A stretch of 32,838 bases of DNA from Acidobacteriota bacterium. Its GTDB lineage: Bacteria; Acidobacteriota; Vicinamibacteria; Fen-336. Of this stretch, positions 3 through 6,731 are shown piece after piece (the first letter of the stretch is position 1; the number at the start of each line of letters is the position of its first letter). The stretch is taken from positions 1 through 32,838 of the forward strand of contig QHVP01000062.1 in assembly GCA_003222295.1 (NCBI GenBank), given 5' to 3'. The notes beneath the pieces are model-generated. The model saw only the letters and a program-made list of their open reading frames with translations. It was not told the DNA's origin and made no database searches. The translations under genes were made by a program, and so were the position numbers.

Positions 3-671
3 TTCCTCAAGAACGTCATGGGCCTCTGGATCCTCGAACGGTTGCGGAAGAAGTGGGATGAGGAGGGCCTGGCGAGCGGATACGACGCGCTGCTGGGGGC
101 AGCGGCCGCGATCGACCGATCGCCGGGCCTGATCTTCCCCGACGACCCGCGCCTGCTCAACCCGCCGCGCATGACGGCCGCCCTCGCCGAGCAGATGCGC
201 GAGACCGGCCAGGCCGCGCCCACGGCGCCTGCGGCGATGGCCAGGGTGGTGCTGGACTCGCTGGCCTTGCGCTATGCCTCGGTGGTACGAACGATCGAGG
301 TGCTGACCGGCCAGACGATCGCCGGCGTGCAGATCGTGGGCGGGGGCGGCCGCAACGACTACCTCAACCAGGCCACCGCCGACGCCACCGGACGGCCGGT
401 GGTGGCCGGTCCCGTCGAAGCCACCGTGATCGGCAACGTGCTGGTACAAGCGGTCACGGCGGGGCGGTTCGCGTCGCTGGCGCACGCGCGGAGGCACGTC
501 GCAGCCACACCCATCAGTGGTGGCCGCAGTGCAGCCACACCCATCAGTGGTGGCCGCAGTGCGGACCGGATCCAGCCGCGCCGGTTCGAGCCCAGGCCCG
601 CTTCGGCCGGGGACGACATGGCGCGCCGATACCGCGAGCTGGAGGCGCGATACCTGGAGGTCAGAACATGA
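3..671 (+). CDS. Rhamnulokinase-like FGGY-family sugar kinase, C-terminal part (5' truncated by window edge)
   Basis: The reading frame is already open at base 3 and begins FLKNVMGLWILERLRKKW, which matches the conserved block of rhamnulokinases (R/F-L-K-N-x-M-G-L-W). About 222 residues are present. They include the FGGY C-terminal nucleotide-binding segment with the glycine-rich stretch IVGGGGRNDYLNQATADATGRPVVAGPVEAT. Family knowledge: these enzymes phosphorylate L-rhamnulose (or a related ketose) with ATP in the cytoplasm. The N-terminal sugar-binding domain lies outside the window, so the substrate is inferred from similarity only. An exact 30-bp tandem duplication near the C-terminus adds the repeated peptide AATPISGGRS between the usual last helix (RFASLAHARRHV) and the final RFEPRP/RYRELEARY segment. 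The gene ends by overlapping the convergent barrel gene by 11 bp. Confidence 0.8.
   Translation, partial: FLKNVMGLWILERLRKKWDEEGLASGYDALLGAAAAIDRSPGLIFPDDPRLLNPPRMTAALAEQMRETGQAAPTAPAAMARVVLDSLALRYASVVRTIEVLTGQTIAGVQIVGGGGRNDYLNQATADATGRPVVAGPVEATVIGNVLVQAVTAGRFASLAHARRHVAATPISGGRSAATPISGGRSADRIQPRRFEPRPASAGDDMARRYRELEARYLEVRT
501..560. repeat. Exact 30-bp tandem direct repeat, two copies, in frame inside the sugar kinase
   Basis: Bases 501-530 and 531-560 are identical. The unit length is a multiple of three, so the duplication keeps the frame and encodes AATPISGGRS twice. Each unit also contains an imperfect inverted repeat: GCAGCCAC at its start and GTGGCCGC about 11 nt later, with one mismatch. 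It therefore could fold as a small hairpin. Confidence 0.95.
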
Positions 672-3118
672 AGCCGGCGTCGACGTAGAGCCCGGTGCGC
701 TCCTCGCTCGTGGCCACGGCCAGGCTGAGCGTGTTGCGCCGGCTGAGGAACGAGAACCAGACGCCGCCGCCGGCCGCGGTGTGCCACTTGTGCGAGGACT
801 CGCCCTCGAGGAACACGCGGCCGGCGTCGGCCAGCCCGAAGATGCCGAACTCGCCGGGCAGCAGGACCATGAACCGGCCCAGGGCGAGGCGCAGCTCGGC
901 GTTCCCGTAGAGAGAGGCGTCCCCGCCGAACCGCTCCGCCCGCAGCCCGCGCACCGTCGTATGGCCGCCGATGTAGGCGGCCTCGTGGAACGGATAGTCA
1001 CCCCAGACACGCTTGCCCCCGACGCGCAACGCGAGCGTGGGATGAGGAGCGACGGCGGGAGTGAGGTAGGCCGAAGCCTCGCCGTGAACTTCGCCGAACG
1101 TGCTGCGCACGCCCCAGAAGCCCGGGAACGCGCGCGCCTCCGCTTGGACGAGGGCGCCGCGCGTCGGATAGCCGGGGCGGTCGCGATGGTCGAGGGACAG
1201 GCCGAGGCGCCCGCCGACCTGCCCGAAGTCCTCCGTCCCGTACGGCTGCACCGCGCTGATGAGCCGTCCCGCCTCCAACGAGGTCGTCGAGTACTGGACG
1301 ACGGGGCCGACGGTGAGATCGGCGCGGCTCCCGAGGTCGAACACCAGCGCGGGCGCGAACAGGTACTGCTGCTGCTTGACCTTGTGCGCGTCGTCGGAGG
1401 GCAGGCGCAACGTCTCGTTGCCGAGGCCATAGAAGCGCAGGATCTCGATGCCGGAGGCGCGCGCGAAGATCGAGGTGCGCGTGCCGGAATTCTCGTGGCG
1501 GAAATCTCCCTGGTAGTCGAAGCGCACGGCCTGCGCCGTCGTCGCATAGCCGCCGCGCAGCCGCTGATGGGAGGCATACGGATCCTTGCGGAAGCCGTAG
1601 CTCTCCCGCGTCACGCTTGCGCCCAGGAAGAGGCCGAGATCAGGGCCGTAGCTGAGCCAGGGCAGGCTCGTCGTGAGGCCCCCCCAGTCGCGCGGGGGAA
1701 TCCACGGTGCGCGCGGGTTCGTGGGAGGCGGGATGTACGCGCGGCGGTCGAGAGAAGCGTGTTCCGTCACCTTGGTGCAGGACTCGGCATCGGCGACGCG
1801 CACCTCGGGTCCGCCCGTGACTTCGACGGCTTCGCAGCCGGCGTCGCCGATGACGCGCACGGTGATCGGACTCGACGGTCCCTGCGGTGGAAGTAGGGCG
1901 CGGCGCCGGCCGCCGTCTCCGAAACCCTCACCTCGAGGCCGCCGCCGGCCAACCCCGTCAGCTCGACGCGATCGGCACGGTCGGTCGCGTAGACATCCAC
2001 CTTGCCCGCCAGGTGGCGGTAGTAGCGGACCGCTTCCTCGGTCATCGCGTCCCGCCGGGCCTTGAGGCCGGCCAGCAACCGCGCCCCATCGCTCGCCCGG
2101 TACTCCGCCGGCATCCGCGCGACCGCCGCCTGCAGCACGGAGTCGGTCAGACGGCCGCGCAGGTCGCGCGCCACCTCGTCCCACGCGCTCCGGTCCAGCT
2201 CCGTGAGGAGCCGCCGGTCCACCTCCCAGCCGTTGAACGTCACGCCCGCTATCGGGGAGTACTTCGGCCCGAACACCACCAGGCGCGGCTGGCCCTTGCG
2301 GAACATCGAGAGGAAGAGCCCCTCGAAACGCACGAAGGCCTGATCGCGGTCCTCGGGGATGGGCTGCCAGAGCGGCGACGACGGGAGCTTGGCCCAGCGC
2401 CACTGGCCCCGGTGCCGGTCCCAGTCGCCGATGAAGACGTCGAAGAGCCGCGCCTTGAGGAACGCGCGGGCGTCGATGCGGTCGGCGGGCGAGGCCTGCA
2501 GCCGCTTCCAGAGCTCCTCGCCGCTGATGATCTCGGTGGCGCCTTCGAACCCGGGGTTGCCACCGCCGACGGGACGCGGGTAGACCTCGATGGTGCCTAC
2601 GAGGTTCGCGAACACCGGGCGGAACTCGCCCAGGGCGGGATCGTCGGGCATGACGACCATCTCCGCGGTGGCGTGCAGGATGCCCGCCGCCTCGAGGAGC
2701 GGCGGAACGATGACCGCGCCCGCGGGATGGCTCGAAGCGATCTGGTCCTGCACGATGCTGCGGGCCACGCTCTCGCGGAGCTCGGGGGGCAGGACCTCGG
2801 TCGGGTCCTTGTCGAGGCCGCGGAACGTGTAGTCGCGGCCGTCGGCGCCTGCATGGCCAGGCCCTTGGTCTCCTGACCCCCGACGCGGCGAACGGGACGG
2901 AGCCCGCCCGCATAGTGCTGCAGGTCGAGCACCGGCACTTCCACGGGCATGGCCCACAGGTCCCGATAGTCGGCCCCGAAGAGGGCGCGGTGGATCGCGC
3001 CGGCCTGATAGCGCTTGCCGGCCACGACGCGTCGCTTCGGCGGGTCCTCGCCGCGCGCGGCGGGGGCACCGACGGCCACCGTTCCCAGGATCGCCAAGGA
3101 CCACAACACCCGCTGCAT
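661..3118 (-). pseudogene. Broken gene: secreted kinase-like domain fused to a BamA/D15-type outer-membrane barrel
   Basis: One protein can be followed through three frames. The first frame starts at 3118 after GGAGGAG and encodes a signal peptide (MQRVLWSLAILGTVAVGAPAARGE) plus the segment up to ETKGLAMQ. Near 2846-2851 it must shift by one base to continue as GADGRDYTFRGLDKDPTEVLPPELR, as if one G were lost from CAGGGCGCC. The second frame covers about 320 residues with FDVFIGDWDRHRGQWRW and PIPEDRDQAFVRF, which resemble the catalytic and metal-binding loops of atypical (HipA/Fam20-like) kinase folds. Near 1876-1890 the match jumps again, after PYFHR, and about 20 expected residues seem missing. 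The third frame gives about 400 residues of beta-barrel with the surface-antigen signature (YIGGHTTVRGLRAERF) and a terminal Phe. Family knowledge: related proteins join an N-terminal metallophosphatase to this middle domain and barrel; the phosphatase is absent here. Either the gene is decayed or the assembly has errors at two sites. Confidence 0.7.
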
Positions 3119-3182: not shown

Positions 3183-3635
3183 TTATTCCGCGGGGACCAC
3201 GACGAAATCGCCGCCTTCGGCATGGACGCGGTAGACCGCGTCGAACCCTTCGCCTGCGGTCGGCGGCTGCAGCCGTTTGGAGGTGACGAACACCGCAACG
3301 TCCGGCACGCGACCTTTCCCCACGCGCGACCGGTTGCGGGCGGCGGACTCCCGGGGCGTCGTGTCCAACACATAGGCGACGACGCGCGCGCCCATCTCGC
3401 GGCCGAGAGCGAGGATCGGAGCGCGGTCGGCCACGGTCGGATTCGTGTTGTCGACGACCGCCGAGCGTCCCGCCCGAAGCGCCTTCCGGACCTCGTCGAG
3501 CTGGCGGCGGCTCGCGTCACGCCCGTGGCCGATGACGTCCTTGCTGACGTGCACGTGGGTGGCGGCCAGGCGTGCCTGGAAGAAGCTCGTCTTCCCGGCG
3601 CCGGGCAGTCCGATGAGGATGGCGACCTCGGTCAT
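3183..3635 (-). CDS. Small P-loop kinase, polynucleotide-kinase/zeta-toxin-like AAA ATPase
   Basis: The predicted protein has 150 residues. Walker A GLPGAGKTS lies at residues 9-17. An acidic strand followed by VDNTNPT (61-67) has the pattern seen in T4 polynucleotide kinase-like proteins, and an arginine-rich lid region (ESAARNRSRVGKGRVPDV) follows. The start at 3635 is supported by GGAGGG four bases upstream. It lies 64 bp upstream of the broken kinase-barrel gene on the same strand, so the two could share a promoter. Family knowledge: such single-domain kinases phosphorylate nucleic-acid ends or small molecules. The substrate cannot be read from this sequence, and no antitoxin is adjacent. 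Confidence 0.8.
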   Translation of the reverse strand: MTEVAILIGLPGAGKTSFFQARLAATHVHVSKDVIGHGRDASRRQLDEVRKALRAGRSAVVDNTNPTVADRAPILALGREMGARVVAYVLDTTPRESAARNRSRVGKGRVPDVAVFVTSKRLQPPTAGEGFDAVYRVHAEGGDFVVVPAE

Positions 3636-3745: not shown

Positions 3746-4654
3746 ATGAAAGCGATCCTCTTCGTCATGCTGGCCGCGCTGACCGCCGCCTACCTGGCCG
3801 TGTGGGTGCGCAGCGTGTGGCGGGCCGGAGGACGCGGCCCGTCTGGGGAGGGCGCCCGTCCCGGGCCAGGGAACCTGCTCATCGGGTTCGTGACGAACTT
3901 CTTCGACACGCTCGGCATCGGATCCTTCGCCACGACGACATCGCTCTTCCGCGTGCTGGGGGCCGTACCCGACGAGCTGATCCCGGGCACCCTCAACGTC
4001 GGCCATACCGTGCCTTCGGTGACCCAGGCCTTCATCTACATCGCGATCGTCGCCGTCGCCATGCCGACGCTCGGCGCGATGATCGCGGCCGCGGTGGCCG
4101 GAGCCTGGCTGGGCGCGGGCGTCGTGTCGCGCTGGAGCCGCGCGCGCGTCCAGCGCGGCATGGGCTCGGCGCTGTTGGCGGCGGCCGGCCTCATGCTGAT
4201 GACGCAGCTCGGGCTGGTCCCTCTGGGCGGAGAGGCGGTCGGATTGTCCGGCATCCGCCTGGCAGTGGCGGTCGGCGTCAACTTCGTCCTCGGCGCGCTC
4301 ATGACGCTCGGCATCGGCCTCTACGCGCCGTGCATGATCCTGGTGTCGCTCCTGGGAATGGATCCCAAGGTGGCGTTCCCCATCATGATGGGCTCGTGCG
4401 CGTTCCTCATGCCCGTCGGCTCCGTGCGGTTCATCCGCGAAGGGCGCTACGCCCTTTCCGCCGCCGTCGGCCTGGCCCTGGGTGGACTGCCCGCCGTCCT
4501 GCTGGCCGCGTACGTCGTGCGGTCGCTCCCGCTGGGGGCCGTGCGCTGGCTGGTCATCGTGGTCGTGGTGTACACCGCGGTCGCGCTGCTCCGCGCCGCG
4601 CAGCGTGAGCGGCGCCGGGCCGGCCCCTCCGCCGCCACCGCTCCCGGCCCCTGA
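3746..4654 (+). CDS. TauE/SafE (TSUP) family sulfite/anion exporter-like permease
   Basis: The protein has 302 residues with about eight hydrophobic segments. The first half carries GFVTNFFDTLGIGSFATTTSLFR. The second half carries a related stretch, VNFVLGALMTLGIGLYAPCMILVSLLGMDPKVAFPIMMGS. This two-fold internal repeat with G-N/D-x-x-D/T-L-G-I-G motifs is the hallmark of TSUP permeases. Family knowledge: members move sulfite, sulfoacetate or other small organosulfur anions across the inner membrane; the substrate here is unknown. The start is the first ATG in frame and has no clear ribosome site. It is divergent from the P-loop kinase with a 110-bp gap. Confidence 0.85.
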   Translation: MKAILFVMLAALTAAYLAVWVRSVWRAGGRGPSGEGARPGPGNLLIGFVTNFFDTLGIGSFATTTSLFRVLGAVPDELIPGTLNVGHTVPSVTQAFIYIAIVAVAMPTLGAMIAAAVAGAWLGAGVVSRWSRARVQRGMGSALLAAAGLMLMTQLGLVPLGGEAVGLSGIRLAVAVGVNFVLGALMTLGIGLYAPCMILVSLLGMDPKVAFPIMMGSCAFLMPVGSVRFIREGRYALSAAVGLALGGLPAVLLAAYVVRSLPLGAVRWLVIVVVVYTAVALLRAAQRERRRAGPSAATAPGP

Positions 4655-4764
4655 GGCCGGCGAGCAATCCGCGGTCGTTCCCACCCGCGTCCGAGAAACC
4701 TCACTACGATCGAACAAGGGATACGCGCGGCGCGTCGCCGCGGGCCTCCCGCGAGGACAACGCC

Positions 4765-5232
4765 ATGAAACGACGATTCCTGATCCCCCTTCTCCTGCTG
4801 CCCGCGGCCTGCGGCGGCCCGAAACAGCCGCCGGCGTCCACCGCCTCCGTCCCCCCCCTCACCACGCTGGCGGCGGCGCCGTCCCCCGCCGGCCCCTCGA
4901 TCGTGGTGGAGGTCGTGACGATCGACACCGCGGCTCCGAGCATCACGCTCCGCGAGGGAGAGGTGCCGGCGGGGGCGGCGAAGGCGAGCAATCTCAAGAC
5001 GGGGGACCGCACGCTCCGCGTGGAGCCGTCCGCGGCGGCCAGCCTGAGCGGCGTCAAGCCCGGCATGCGCGTGCGCGTGACCTGCTCCGCGCCGGTACCC
5101 GTGGCGATCGAAGCCTCACCCGCGCCGGGCACGGCATCCCCGCGCATGGCGTCGGCCGCGCCTGCGCAAGGCGCTCTGGCGCGCTGTGACTCGATCGTGG
5201 CGATCGCGCCGCAGGAATCGTTGGCCCCGTAG
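4765..5232 (+). CDS. Small putative lipoprotein of unknown function
   Basis: The protein has 155 residues. It opens MKRRFLIPLLLLPAACGG, a short basic-hydrophobic leader followed by a Cys in a lipobox-like setting (LPAAC; Pro at -3 is not ideal). A Pro/Ala/Ser-rich stretch of about 40 residues follows, as is usual for lipoprotein linkers. The central part (IVVEVVTIDTAAPSITLREGEVPAGA...LRVEPSAAASLSGVKPGMRVRVTC) alternates like a small beta-barrel or OB-like fold. The ribosome site GAGGA lies 7 nt before the ATG. I do not recognise the family. It converges on the cyclic-nucleotide-binding gene that ends at 5310. Confidence 0.65.
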   Translation: MKRRFLIPLLLLPAACGGPKQPPASTASVPPLTTLAAAPSPAGPSIVVEVVTIDTAAPSITLREGEVPAGAAKASNLKTGDRTLRVEPSAAASLSGVKPGMRVRVTCSAPVPVAIEASPAPGTASPRMASAAPAQGALARCDSIVAIAPQESLAP

Positions 5233-5309
5233 CCGGCGTTCGTAACTCGACGACCCACCTGGCCACAAGCGCCTTATCCGCTAACCGGGTGAATCGTTCT
5301 GTTCGTCCG

Positions 5310-6731
5310 TCAGCTTTTTTTCGCCATGCGCTGGTTCGCGAACTCCTGAAGGACGTCCCAGACGTGGGGGTGCGTCTGGGTGATGGCGTCCAGCGTCGGC
5401 CGGTCCAGCTCCAGGAGCTCGGAGTGCTCGGTGGCCACGATGGTCGCGGTGCGCGGCTTGCCGGTGAGGATCGAGCCCTCGCCGAAGAACGCGCCCTCCT
5501 CCAGCTCGGCGATCGGGACCTGCTTGCCGTCGCGCTTGACGAAGGCCTTCACCGCTCCCGACGTGAGCATGTAGAGGCTGTTGCCGGGCTCGCCTTCGCG
5601 CAGGATCACCTTGCCGCGCTCGAAGGTCAGGAGCTTGAGGCCGGCGATCACGGCCACCAGCTCTTCCACCGAGAAGTCCTTGAACAGCGGGCTCACCACG
5701 ATCTGCGCGCCCCCGCTGGGCGCGGCCCCGTCGCCGTCCGGCACCTGCTCGCTCGGACCCGGGAACGCATTCTCGAGGACCGAGAACGGCTCGTCCGCGA
5801 ACCGGCTGTCGGACATTGGATCCGACACGGGCTCCTCTTCCGTCGCGGGCTCGGCTTCGAGGACGGCCTCCACGGACTCGAACTCGCCCGTGAACAGGTC
5901 CTGGTCCACGACCGGTTCGGCGAGCTCCGGTATGGGAGCGGGAGCGGCGGCAGGGGTGGGGAGAGGTTCCACCTCGACCAGCGGCAGGGTCTCCGGCTCG
6001 AGCCCGAGGTCCAAGGGCCCCTCTTCGACCACGGGCGTGGCATCGACGCCGAGGTCGAGCTCGACGACCGGCTCCACGGGCGCGGGCGACGGCGTCGCCT
6101 CGATGATCGGGCTCACCGACCCCGACAAGTCCAGCAAGGGAGCGGCCTCCAGCTCGAGCTCCGGCTCGGCGGCAACCGGGGGAGGCACGGGTGCGACGCG
6201 CGCCGGTGGAGGAGCGGGTGCGCGTGCGGGCGCGGGCGGCGGAGCGGCGGGTGGGGGCGGCTCGGGCGCGACGACGCGGGGGGCGGGAACGGGCACGGGG
6301 ACGGACTCCCTGGCGCTCGGCGGCGGCTCGAAGCCGATTTCCTCCATGCCGAGCTCGAGCGCGCCCCCCGAGGGCGGGGTCCCGACCACGGTGGCCAGCC
6401 GCTGCTTGTCCTGGATGAGGGTCGCGAGGCGGGAATCGATGTCGCGCCGGCCGGGGTCGATCCTCTGGACCTTCTTGAGGATGGAGATGGCCTTGGCCGC
6501 GAAGCCGTCCTTGGCGAACTCGTCCGCGAGGGGAAGGAGGATGGTGACCGCCTCCTTGTTCTTGCCCGCGGACACGAGGACGTCCGCGAGCTGCAGCCGC
6601 AGCCGCGGATCGTTGCGCTGGGTCTGGAGCTGCTCGCGGATGACCTCGATGGCCCGGGTGTAGTTCTTCTTGGCGATGAGGGCGCCGACGTCCTCGCCTT
6701 TGCCCTGCCCGCTGAAGCGCCCCAACACCAT
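5310..6731 (-). CDS. TPR-like / disordered linker / cyclic-nucleotide-binding domain protein
   Basis: The protein has 473 residues in three parts. Residues about 12-115 form TPR-like helical repeats (NYTRAIEVIREQL, DPRLRLQLADVLVSAGKNKEAV, AKAISILKKVQRIDPGRRDI). Residues about 140-345 are a Pro/Ala/Glu-rich linker, probably disordered, with recurring LDLG-type acidic motifs. Residues about 345-470 are a cNMP-binding domain (GEPGNSLYMLTSGAVKAFVKRDGK and the phosphate-binding cassette FFGEGSILTGKPRTATI, keeping Gly-Glu and Arg). There is no HTH or enzymatic output domain, unlike CRP/FNR regulators. Inference: a cytoplasmic receptor or adaptor that responds to a cyclic nucleotide through protein contacts. 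AGGAGG lies 11 nt before the ATG. It follows the P1-peptidase gene by 72 bp and is a longer paralogue of the protein at 10785-11618. Confidence 0.85.
   Translation of the reverse strand: MVLGRFSGQGKGEDVGALIAKKNYTRAIEVIREQLQTQRNDPRLRLQLADVLVSAGKNKEAVTILLPLADEFAKDGFAAKAISILKKVQRIDPGRRDIDSRLATLIQDKQRLATVVGTPPSGGALELGMEEIGFEPPPSARESVPVPVPAPRVVAPEPPPPAAPPPAPARAPAPPPARVAPVPPPVAAEPELELEAAPLLDLSGSVSPIIEATPSPAPVEPVVELDLGVDATPVVEEGPLDLGLEPETLPLVEVEPLPTPAAAPAPIPELAEPVVDQDLFTGEFESVEAVLEAEPATEEEPVSDPMSDSRFADEPFSVLENAFPGPSEQVPDGDGAAPSGGAQIVVSPLFKDFSVEELVAVIAGLKLLTFERGKVILREGEPGNSLYMLTSGAVKAFVKRDGKQVPIAELEEGAFFGEGSILTGKPRTATIVATEHSELLELDRPTLDAITQTHPHVWDVLQEFANQRMAKKS

Follow-up and report, generated by a model that had tools for sequence, protein, structure and literature searches.

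CotH has been proved to be an atypical kinase, with Fam20C as a distant relative (PMC7821199). Proteins of the Omp85 superfamily usually assemble or translocate other proteins, and the published scheme that divides them into ten subfamilies accepts members without POTRA domains and names no kinase-like domain (PMC4104836). One of these subfamilies, the 'Metallo' group of Heinz and Lithgow, combines a PF00149 phosphoesterase with the barrel, likewise with no kinase-like domain mentioned (PMC4104836). According to a review of 2020, no homologue of the ATP/ADP translocases is known in Gram-negative bacteria, and the route by which ATP might enter the periplasm is unknown (PMC7432876).

Here we report on a gene of an acidobacterial contig in which the two kinds of domain meet. 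The window, that is, the whole stretch of DNA analysed (32,838 nucleotides), carries on its minus strand, from position 3118 down to 661, three reading frames that join in order into one gene (Table 1). A preliminary description of the same DNA had proposed a kinase-like domain fused to an outer-membrane barrel, interrupted at two points and preceded by a signal peptide. The three frames, the PF01103 match of the barrel and the existence of intact relatives confirm this arrangement, and the signal peptide lies in the first frame. To characterize the gene and its family we computed gene anatomy, fold similarity, residue conservation, domain architectures and gene neighbourhood.

Table 1. Features of the kinase-barrel gene in the window; L033 is an intact relative.
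Feature	Position	Strand	Description	Basis
First frame	2855..3118	-	ATG, signal peptide MQRVLWSLAILGTVAVGAPAARG, start of the N-lobe; ends ...GGQETKGLA	Translation, alignment to relatives
First interruption	2847..2854	-	Frame change relative to intact relatives	
Second frame	1893..2846	-	Bulk of the kinase-like domain, 318 aa	62% identical to L033
RGLDK	2808..2822	-	Invariant Arg and Lys, R72 and K76 of the L033 domain	86/86 domains
RGLDK, placement			At and just past the third N-lobe strand	Strand from the L033 model
GDWDRH	2412..2429	-	Catalytic-loop motif	In register with CotH GNWD and HipA NCDDH
DRD (within IPEDRDQAF)	2343..2351	-	Putative metal-binding motif	In register with CotH DYD
Second interruption	1890..1893	-	Frame change and about 25-28 codons missing relative to relatives	
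Third frame	661..1896	-	Rest of the beta-rich linker and Omp85 barrel, then stop codon	

Compared with the single, uninterrupted 850-aa protein of L033, the three pieces show 57, 62 and 53% identity, and their first and second codon positions differ less than the third, the usual pattern of a coding sequence that evolves under purifying selection. As the pieces align to one relative's protein and bear this codon-position signature, the gene is not a product of chance. The third frame matches the Omp85 barrel family PF01103 (Pfam, E=3.8e-10, at about 1542-796) as well as NF047779 (NCBIfam, E=3.5e-28). Both the catalytic-loop Asp and the metal-binding Asp are present in the window copy, and where many members have a motif of the RGF/RGY type it reads VRGL. 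Pfam detected no PF00149 phosphoesterase in the window protein or in L033, and no POTRA family match in the window protein or the members checked. Just upstream, on the same strand, lies a gene for a small P-loop protein of the AAA_33 type (3186-3635, minus). Elsewhere in the window, a 30-bp unit occurs twice in perfect tandem (501-560), close to the 3' end of a gene for an FGGY-family carbohydrate kinase (18-671, plus); both copies are in frame and add a repeated stretch of the AATPISGGRS type.

The window copy is either inactivated or misassembled. Relatives in Acidobacteriota, Gemmatimonadota and Bacteroidota encode the protein uninterrupted, and among the matches listed the matched stretch is free of internal stops; at least one other member, on contig 169 of genome G011 (L027/L031), is split between two frames, and it also comes from a metagenome-assembled genome. 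That both interruptions arose in assembly or sequencing while the organism's own gene is intact has, in our estimate, a little less than an even chance. The source genome is itself metagenome-assembled, with 704 contigs and 79% completeness, and this fragmentation makes an assembly error about as likely as a real pseudogene; constraint on the coding sequence and the motifs are kept in all three pieces, and the other family members are mostly intact. Against an error stand two independent lesions in one gene, which do not compensate each other and one of which removes about 25-28 codons, and the single open frames of the other recognisable genes of the window, LigD (957 aa), Peptidase_S58 and MatE, which favour a real pseudogene. 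An assembly error in the window would be compatible with the explanation of the family that we prefer below.

The fold of the middle domain was modelled with AlphaFold2 on L033 using an alignment with 18 relatives (mean pLDDT 89, pTM 0.90). When this model was compared with the PDB by Foldseek, all 22 matches with E<0.001 were atypical kinases: CtkA of H. pylori (the best, E=7.2e-6), human PI4KII-alpha, CotH of Bacillus cereus, the Golgi casein kinase Fam20, HipA of Shewanella and another HipA entry, and HipT in the Legionella HipS-HipT complex. The structural search thus bears out the likeness to atypical kinases that had been read from two short motifs. The TM-scores for CtkA, 0.36 by query and at most 0.56 by target, are modest, so that the resemblance of fold is a distant one and no sign of a close relationship. 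Profile-profile alignment brings GDWDRH and IPEDRDQAF into register with CotH, at GNWD and IPYDYDNT (score 40), and GDWDRH with NCDDH of HipA (score 34); the phosphoesterase and the barrel, used as controls, scored 24 and 19. As modelled, the L033 domain has the kinase fold expected of the protein-kinase-like superfamily. Searches of Pfam and NCBIfam gave no confident family match for it; among 19 members neither CotH (PF08757, best E=0.0047, in one member) nor HipA (PF07804; HipA_C best E=0.22, in one member) was matched above the curated Pfam cut-off, a sequence-profile search of the PDB yielded no kinase, and PADLOC returned nothing useful for the domain. The absence of a curated family match is what speaks for a chance resemblance, in which two short motifs merely look like kinase loops; with fold, conservation and profile register all concordant, we regard such a coincidence as highly improbable.

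Conservation was assessed in 86 domain sequences, a few of which are shortened copies of the same genes, with the numbering of the L033 domain. Both Asp residues of the DRD motif (Asp229 and Asp231) are present in every one of them, as are Arg72, Lys76, Arg24, Arg196, Trp212, Arg327 and Pro104; Asp97 is kept in 85 and Asp204 in 82. The third N-lobe strand bears the invariant Arg72 where a Lys is usual, and the invariant Lys76 stands in the following loop. The preliminary description had asked whether the Asp residues of the two motifs are invariant; for DRD they are, and the second Asp of GDWDRH (Asp206) is retained in 76 of the 86; neither position varies freely, and the kinase-like reading stands. 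The ten exceptions comprise eight Ser and two Gly. The eight with Ser read DWSRR and each forms one partner of a divergent gene pair whose other partner reads GDWDRH; these pairs, whose members lack the barrel, were seen in Rufibacter and in one further genome of Bacteroidota (L040, L041, L043, L045, L046 and L080). Active kinases that have a degenerate partner are known, Fam20C with Fam20A being an example.

The model of full-length L033 is weaker (pLDDT 77, pTM 0.62); in it the domain is followed by a beta-rich linker, in which GGxGxD repeats occur, and by a barrel at the C-terminus. This barrel matches SAM50, TamA and BamA, in agreement with the BamA-type barrel of the preliminary description, and the structural match together with PF01103 above its cut-off assigns it to the Omp85 superfamily. 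Since the kinase-like domain precedes the barrel, as POTRA domains do in other Omp85 proteins, it should, by the general topology of the superfamily, hang in the periplasm.

Family members were found in 20 of the 60 nearest genomes, in 8 of 297 genomes drawn across the organism's own phylum and in over a third (94/248) of the Bacteroidota genomes sampled; named contigs that carry them belong to Acidobacteria, Gemmatimonadetes, Longimicrobiales and Bacteroidetes. Three architectures occur. Members of the window type consist of domain and barrel (about 850-960 aa), whereas in Bacteroidota a longer form of about 1200-1300 aa places a phosphoesterase before them; the N-terminal calcineurin-type phosphoesterase PF00149 was detected by Pfam in two members of about 1245 aa, and GDN/GNHD motifs are seen in many of the long ones. 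The third form, of about 430-580 aa, is the domain alone. On one Bacteroidetes and one Gemmatimonadetes contig (L039 and L037) the family gene has a second, divergently oriented family gene as its direct neighbour.

An objection raised at the outset, that free ATP is scarce on the periplasmic side, is in our view real, and the neighbourhood of some relatives offers a possible answer to it. On the acidobacterial side, in five genera, a TLC-type gene lies within 4 kb of the family gene at 6 of 38 loci (27 genomes), where copy number and genome size predict 0.18. The association has p of about 3e-8, or about 1e-7 when loci are collapsed to one per genus (5/25), with the neighbour families chosen from the same loci on which it was tested; it is still significant after correction for a thousand families. 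The TLC gene is directly upstream of the family gene at L181 (gap about 16 bp) and L185 (about 14 bp), directly downstream at L184 (about 10 bp), about 0.9 kb downstream at L192 and divergent at L187, and in genome G075 it is on the same contig; that the two genes stay together in differing orders speaks for a link that has been maintained. These neighbours score 34-61 bits in Pfam against a cut-off of 21, and 37-51 bits with the NCBIfam NTP/NDP-exchanger model, far below its cut-off of 387; from their sequences they are predicted to be ATP/ADP transporters. No such gene was found near the window gene or near most family loci. Where it adjoins the family gene, the transporter suggests how a kinase could work in a compartment poor in ATP.

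Recurrent neighbours in Bacteroidota are an HD-PycTM protein, a class III cyclase with TPR repeats, the polyphosphate kinase PPK1, a SixA-type phosphatase, PAP2 (at several loci) and an SdiA-regulated/phytase-like propeller. PPK1 is encoded within the sampled 16-kb stretch at eight loci (L144, L150, L151, L155, L161-L163 and L174), which often also carry the SixA-type phosphatase and the HD-PycTM gene; the SixA-type phosphatase is near seven sampled loci. Of 40 sampled genomes, 35 encode PycTM, as a rule once, and 27 have it no more than 12 kb from a family gene. PADLOC recognised PycTM, a Pycsar-type cyclase weakly, and the kinase-Omp85 protein not at all. A Pycsar defence reading was set aside, as PADLOC matches these neighbours by domain only and lists no system that includes the kinase-Omp85 gene; we treat them as context. 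At L148 (G353) a CotH gene (4502-5629, minus) lies close upstream of the kinase-like-Omp85 gene, and genes related to it occur near the family gene at L144 and L151.

Taken together, we think it probable that the window holds a copy, broken or misassembled, of a gene for a periplasmic kinase anchored in the outer membrane. In the mechanism that we infer from the intact relatives, the signal peptide would export the protein and the C-terminal Omp85-type barrel would settle in the outer membrane, leaving in the periplasm a domain that shares fold and loop motifs with the HipA/CotH/Fam20/PI4KII group and could carry out phosphoryl transfer. GDWDRH would serve as the catalytic loop and DRD would hold the metal, and the phosphate might be accepted by an envelope protein, a lipid or a sugar. 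In some relatives the neighbouring TLC-type nucleotide transporter may supply the periplasm with ATP as donor, and in many Bacteroidota the fused phosphoesterase could reverse the reaction. More broadly, and as a speculation that we hold to be rather unlikely in its entirety, free-living Gram-negative bacteria might possess a dedicated system of periplasmic phosphorylation, in which a TLC carrier imports ATP, the outer-membrane kinase modifies the envelope and the fused phosphoesterase of Bacteroidota undoes the modification, the whole being linked to the cyclase/HD-PycTM pair.

The domain might, alternatively, be a pseudokinase that has kept the fold, and perhaps the binding of metal, and mainly provides docking or regulation, on the periplasmic side, to a pore that serves assembly or translocation at the outer membrane, much as POTRA domains do in BamA. 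The scarcity of periplasmic ATP, the replacement of the third-strand Lys by an invariant Arg, the ten domains that lack the catalytic-loop Asp and the usual role of Omp85 proteins in assembly and translocation (PMC4104836) would all suit such a scaffold; but the invariance of the DRD Asp residues and of the Arg/Lys pair and the retention of the catalytic Asp in most domains go beyond a scaffold's needs, a predicted ATP/ADP transporter adjoins the gene in several genera, and secreted members without any barrel exist, so we consider it unlikely. An active enzyme with another donor or another chemistry, such as adenylylation, glutamylation or polyphosphate-driven transfer, appears to us distinctly improbable. 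Proteins such as SelO and SidJ combine a kinase fold with a different chemistry, and PPK1, the SixA-type phosphatase, PAP2 and PycTM recur beside the family gene as described above, which would fit; on the other hand, the order and spacing of the motifs match those of true phosphotransferases such as CotH, and PPK1 is cytosolic, so that its link may reflect general phosphate metabolism.

A kinase-like domain and an outer-membrane barrel are joined in one polypeptide in over a third of the sampled Bacteroidota and in many relatives on the acidobacterial side; this combination is without an entry in Pfam or NCBIfam, and in the literature searched, with subscription journals and preprints mostly outside it, no prior description of the fusion was found. 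The fold class and the barrel were known already; what we did not find described there is that the two are fused, how common the fusion is and which genes surround it. With a TLC-type gene 10-16 bp away from a kinase-like gene of the outer membrane, the question of periplasmic ATP becomes directly testable.

Among known systems, CotH (PF08757; B. cereus structures 5JD9 and 5JDA) shares with the family the kinase-like fold and the GNWD...IPYDYDNT register, whereas the family, which is not a member of the Pfam CotH family, has the fused barrel and often a phosphoesterase. HipA, CtkA and HipT (PF07804) include the best structural matches (CtkA), and the DxH loop aligns with that of HipA; these proteins have no barrel, and HipA_C is not significantly matched by the family. 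Fam20 and PI4KII match the domain structurally below 1e-3, and Fam20 likewise acts outside the cytosol, but both are eukaryotic and without a barrel, and a family-level sequence match to the domain is absent. The family's pairs of an apparently active and a degenerate member recall Fam20C with Fam20A. A Riemerella metallophosphoesterase, also followed in the literature, was dropped, since citing papers suggest a different, type IX-related enzyme. The 'Metallo' Omp85 proteins share their barrel and N-terminal PF00149 with the family's Bacteroidota members, and differ from the window protein, which lacks phosphoesterase and POTRA. As the members of about 1245 aa that were checked have this same composition, the published 'Metallo' subfamily probably contains the kinase-like domain, unrecognised, and its sequences would then be the same proteins as the family's long form. 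The patatin-Omp85 protein PlpD likewise carries an enzyme domain before its Omp85 barrel (PMC4104836), a lipase in that case, whereas the family has in this place a kinase-like domain.
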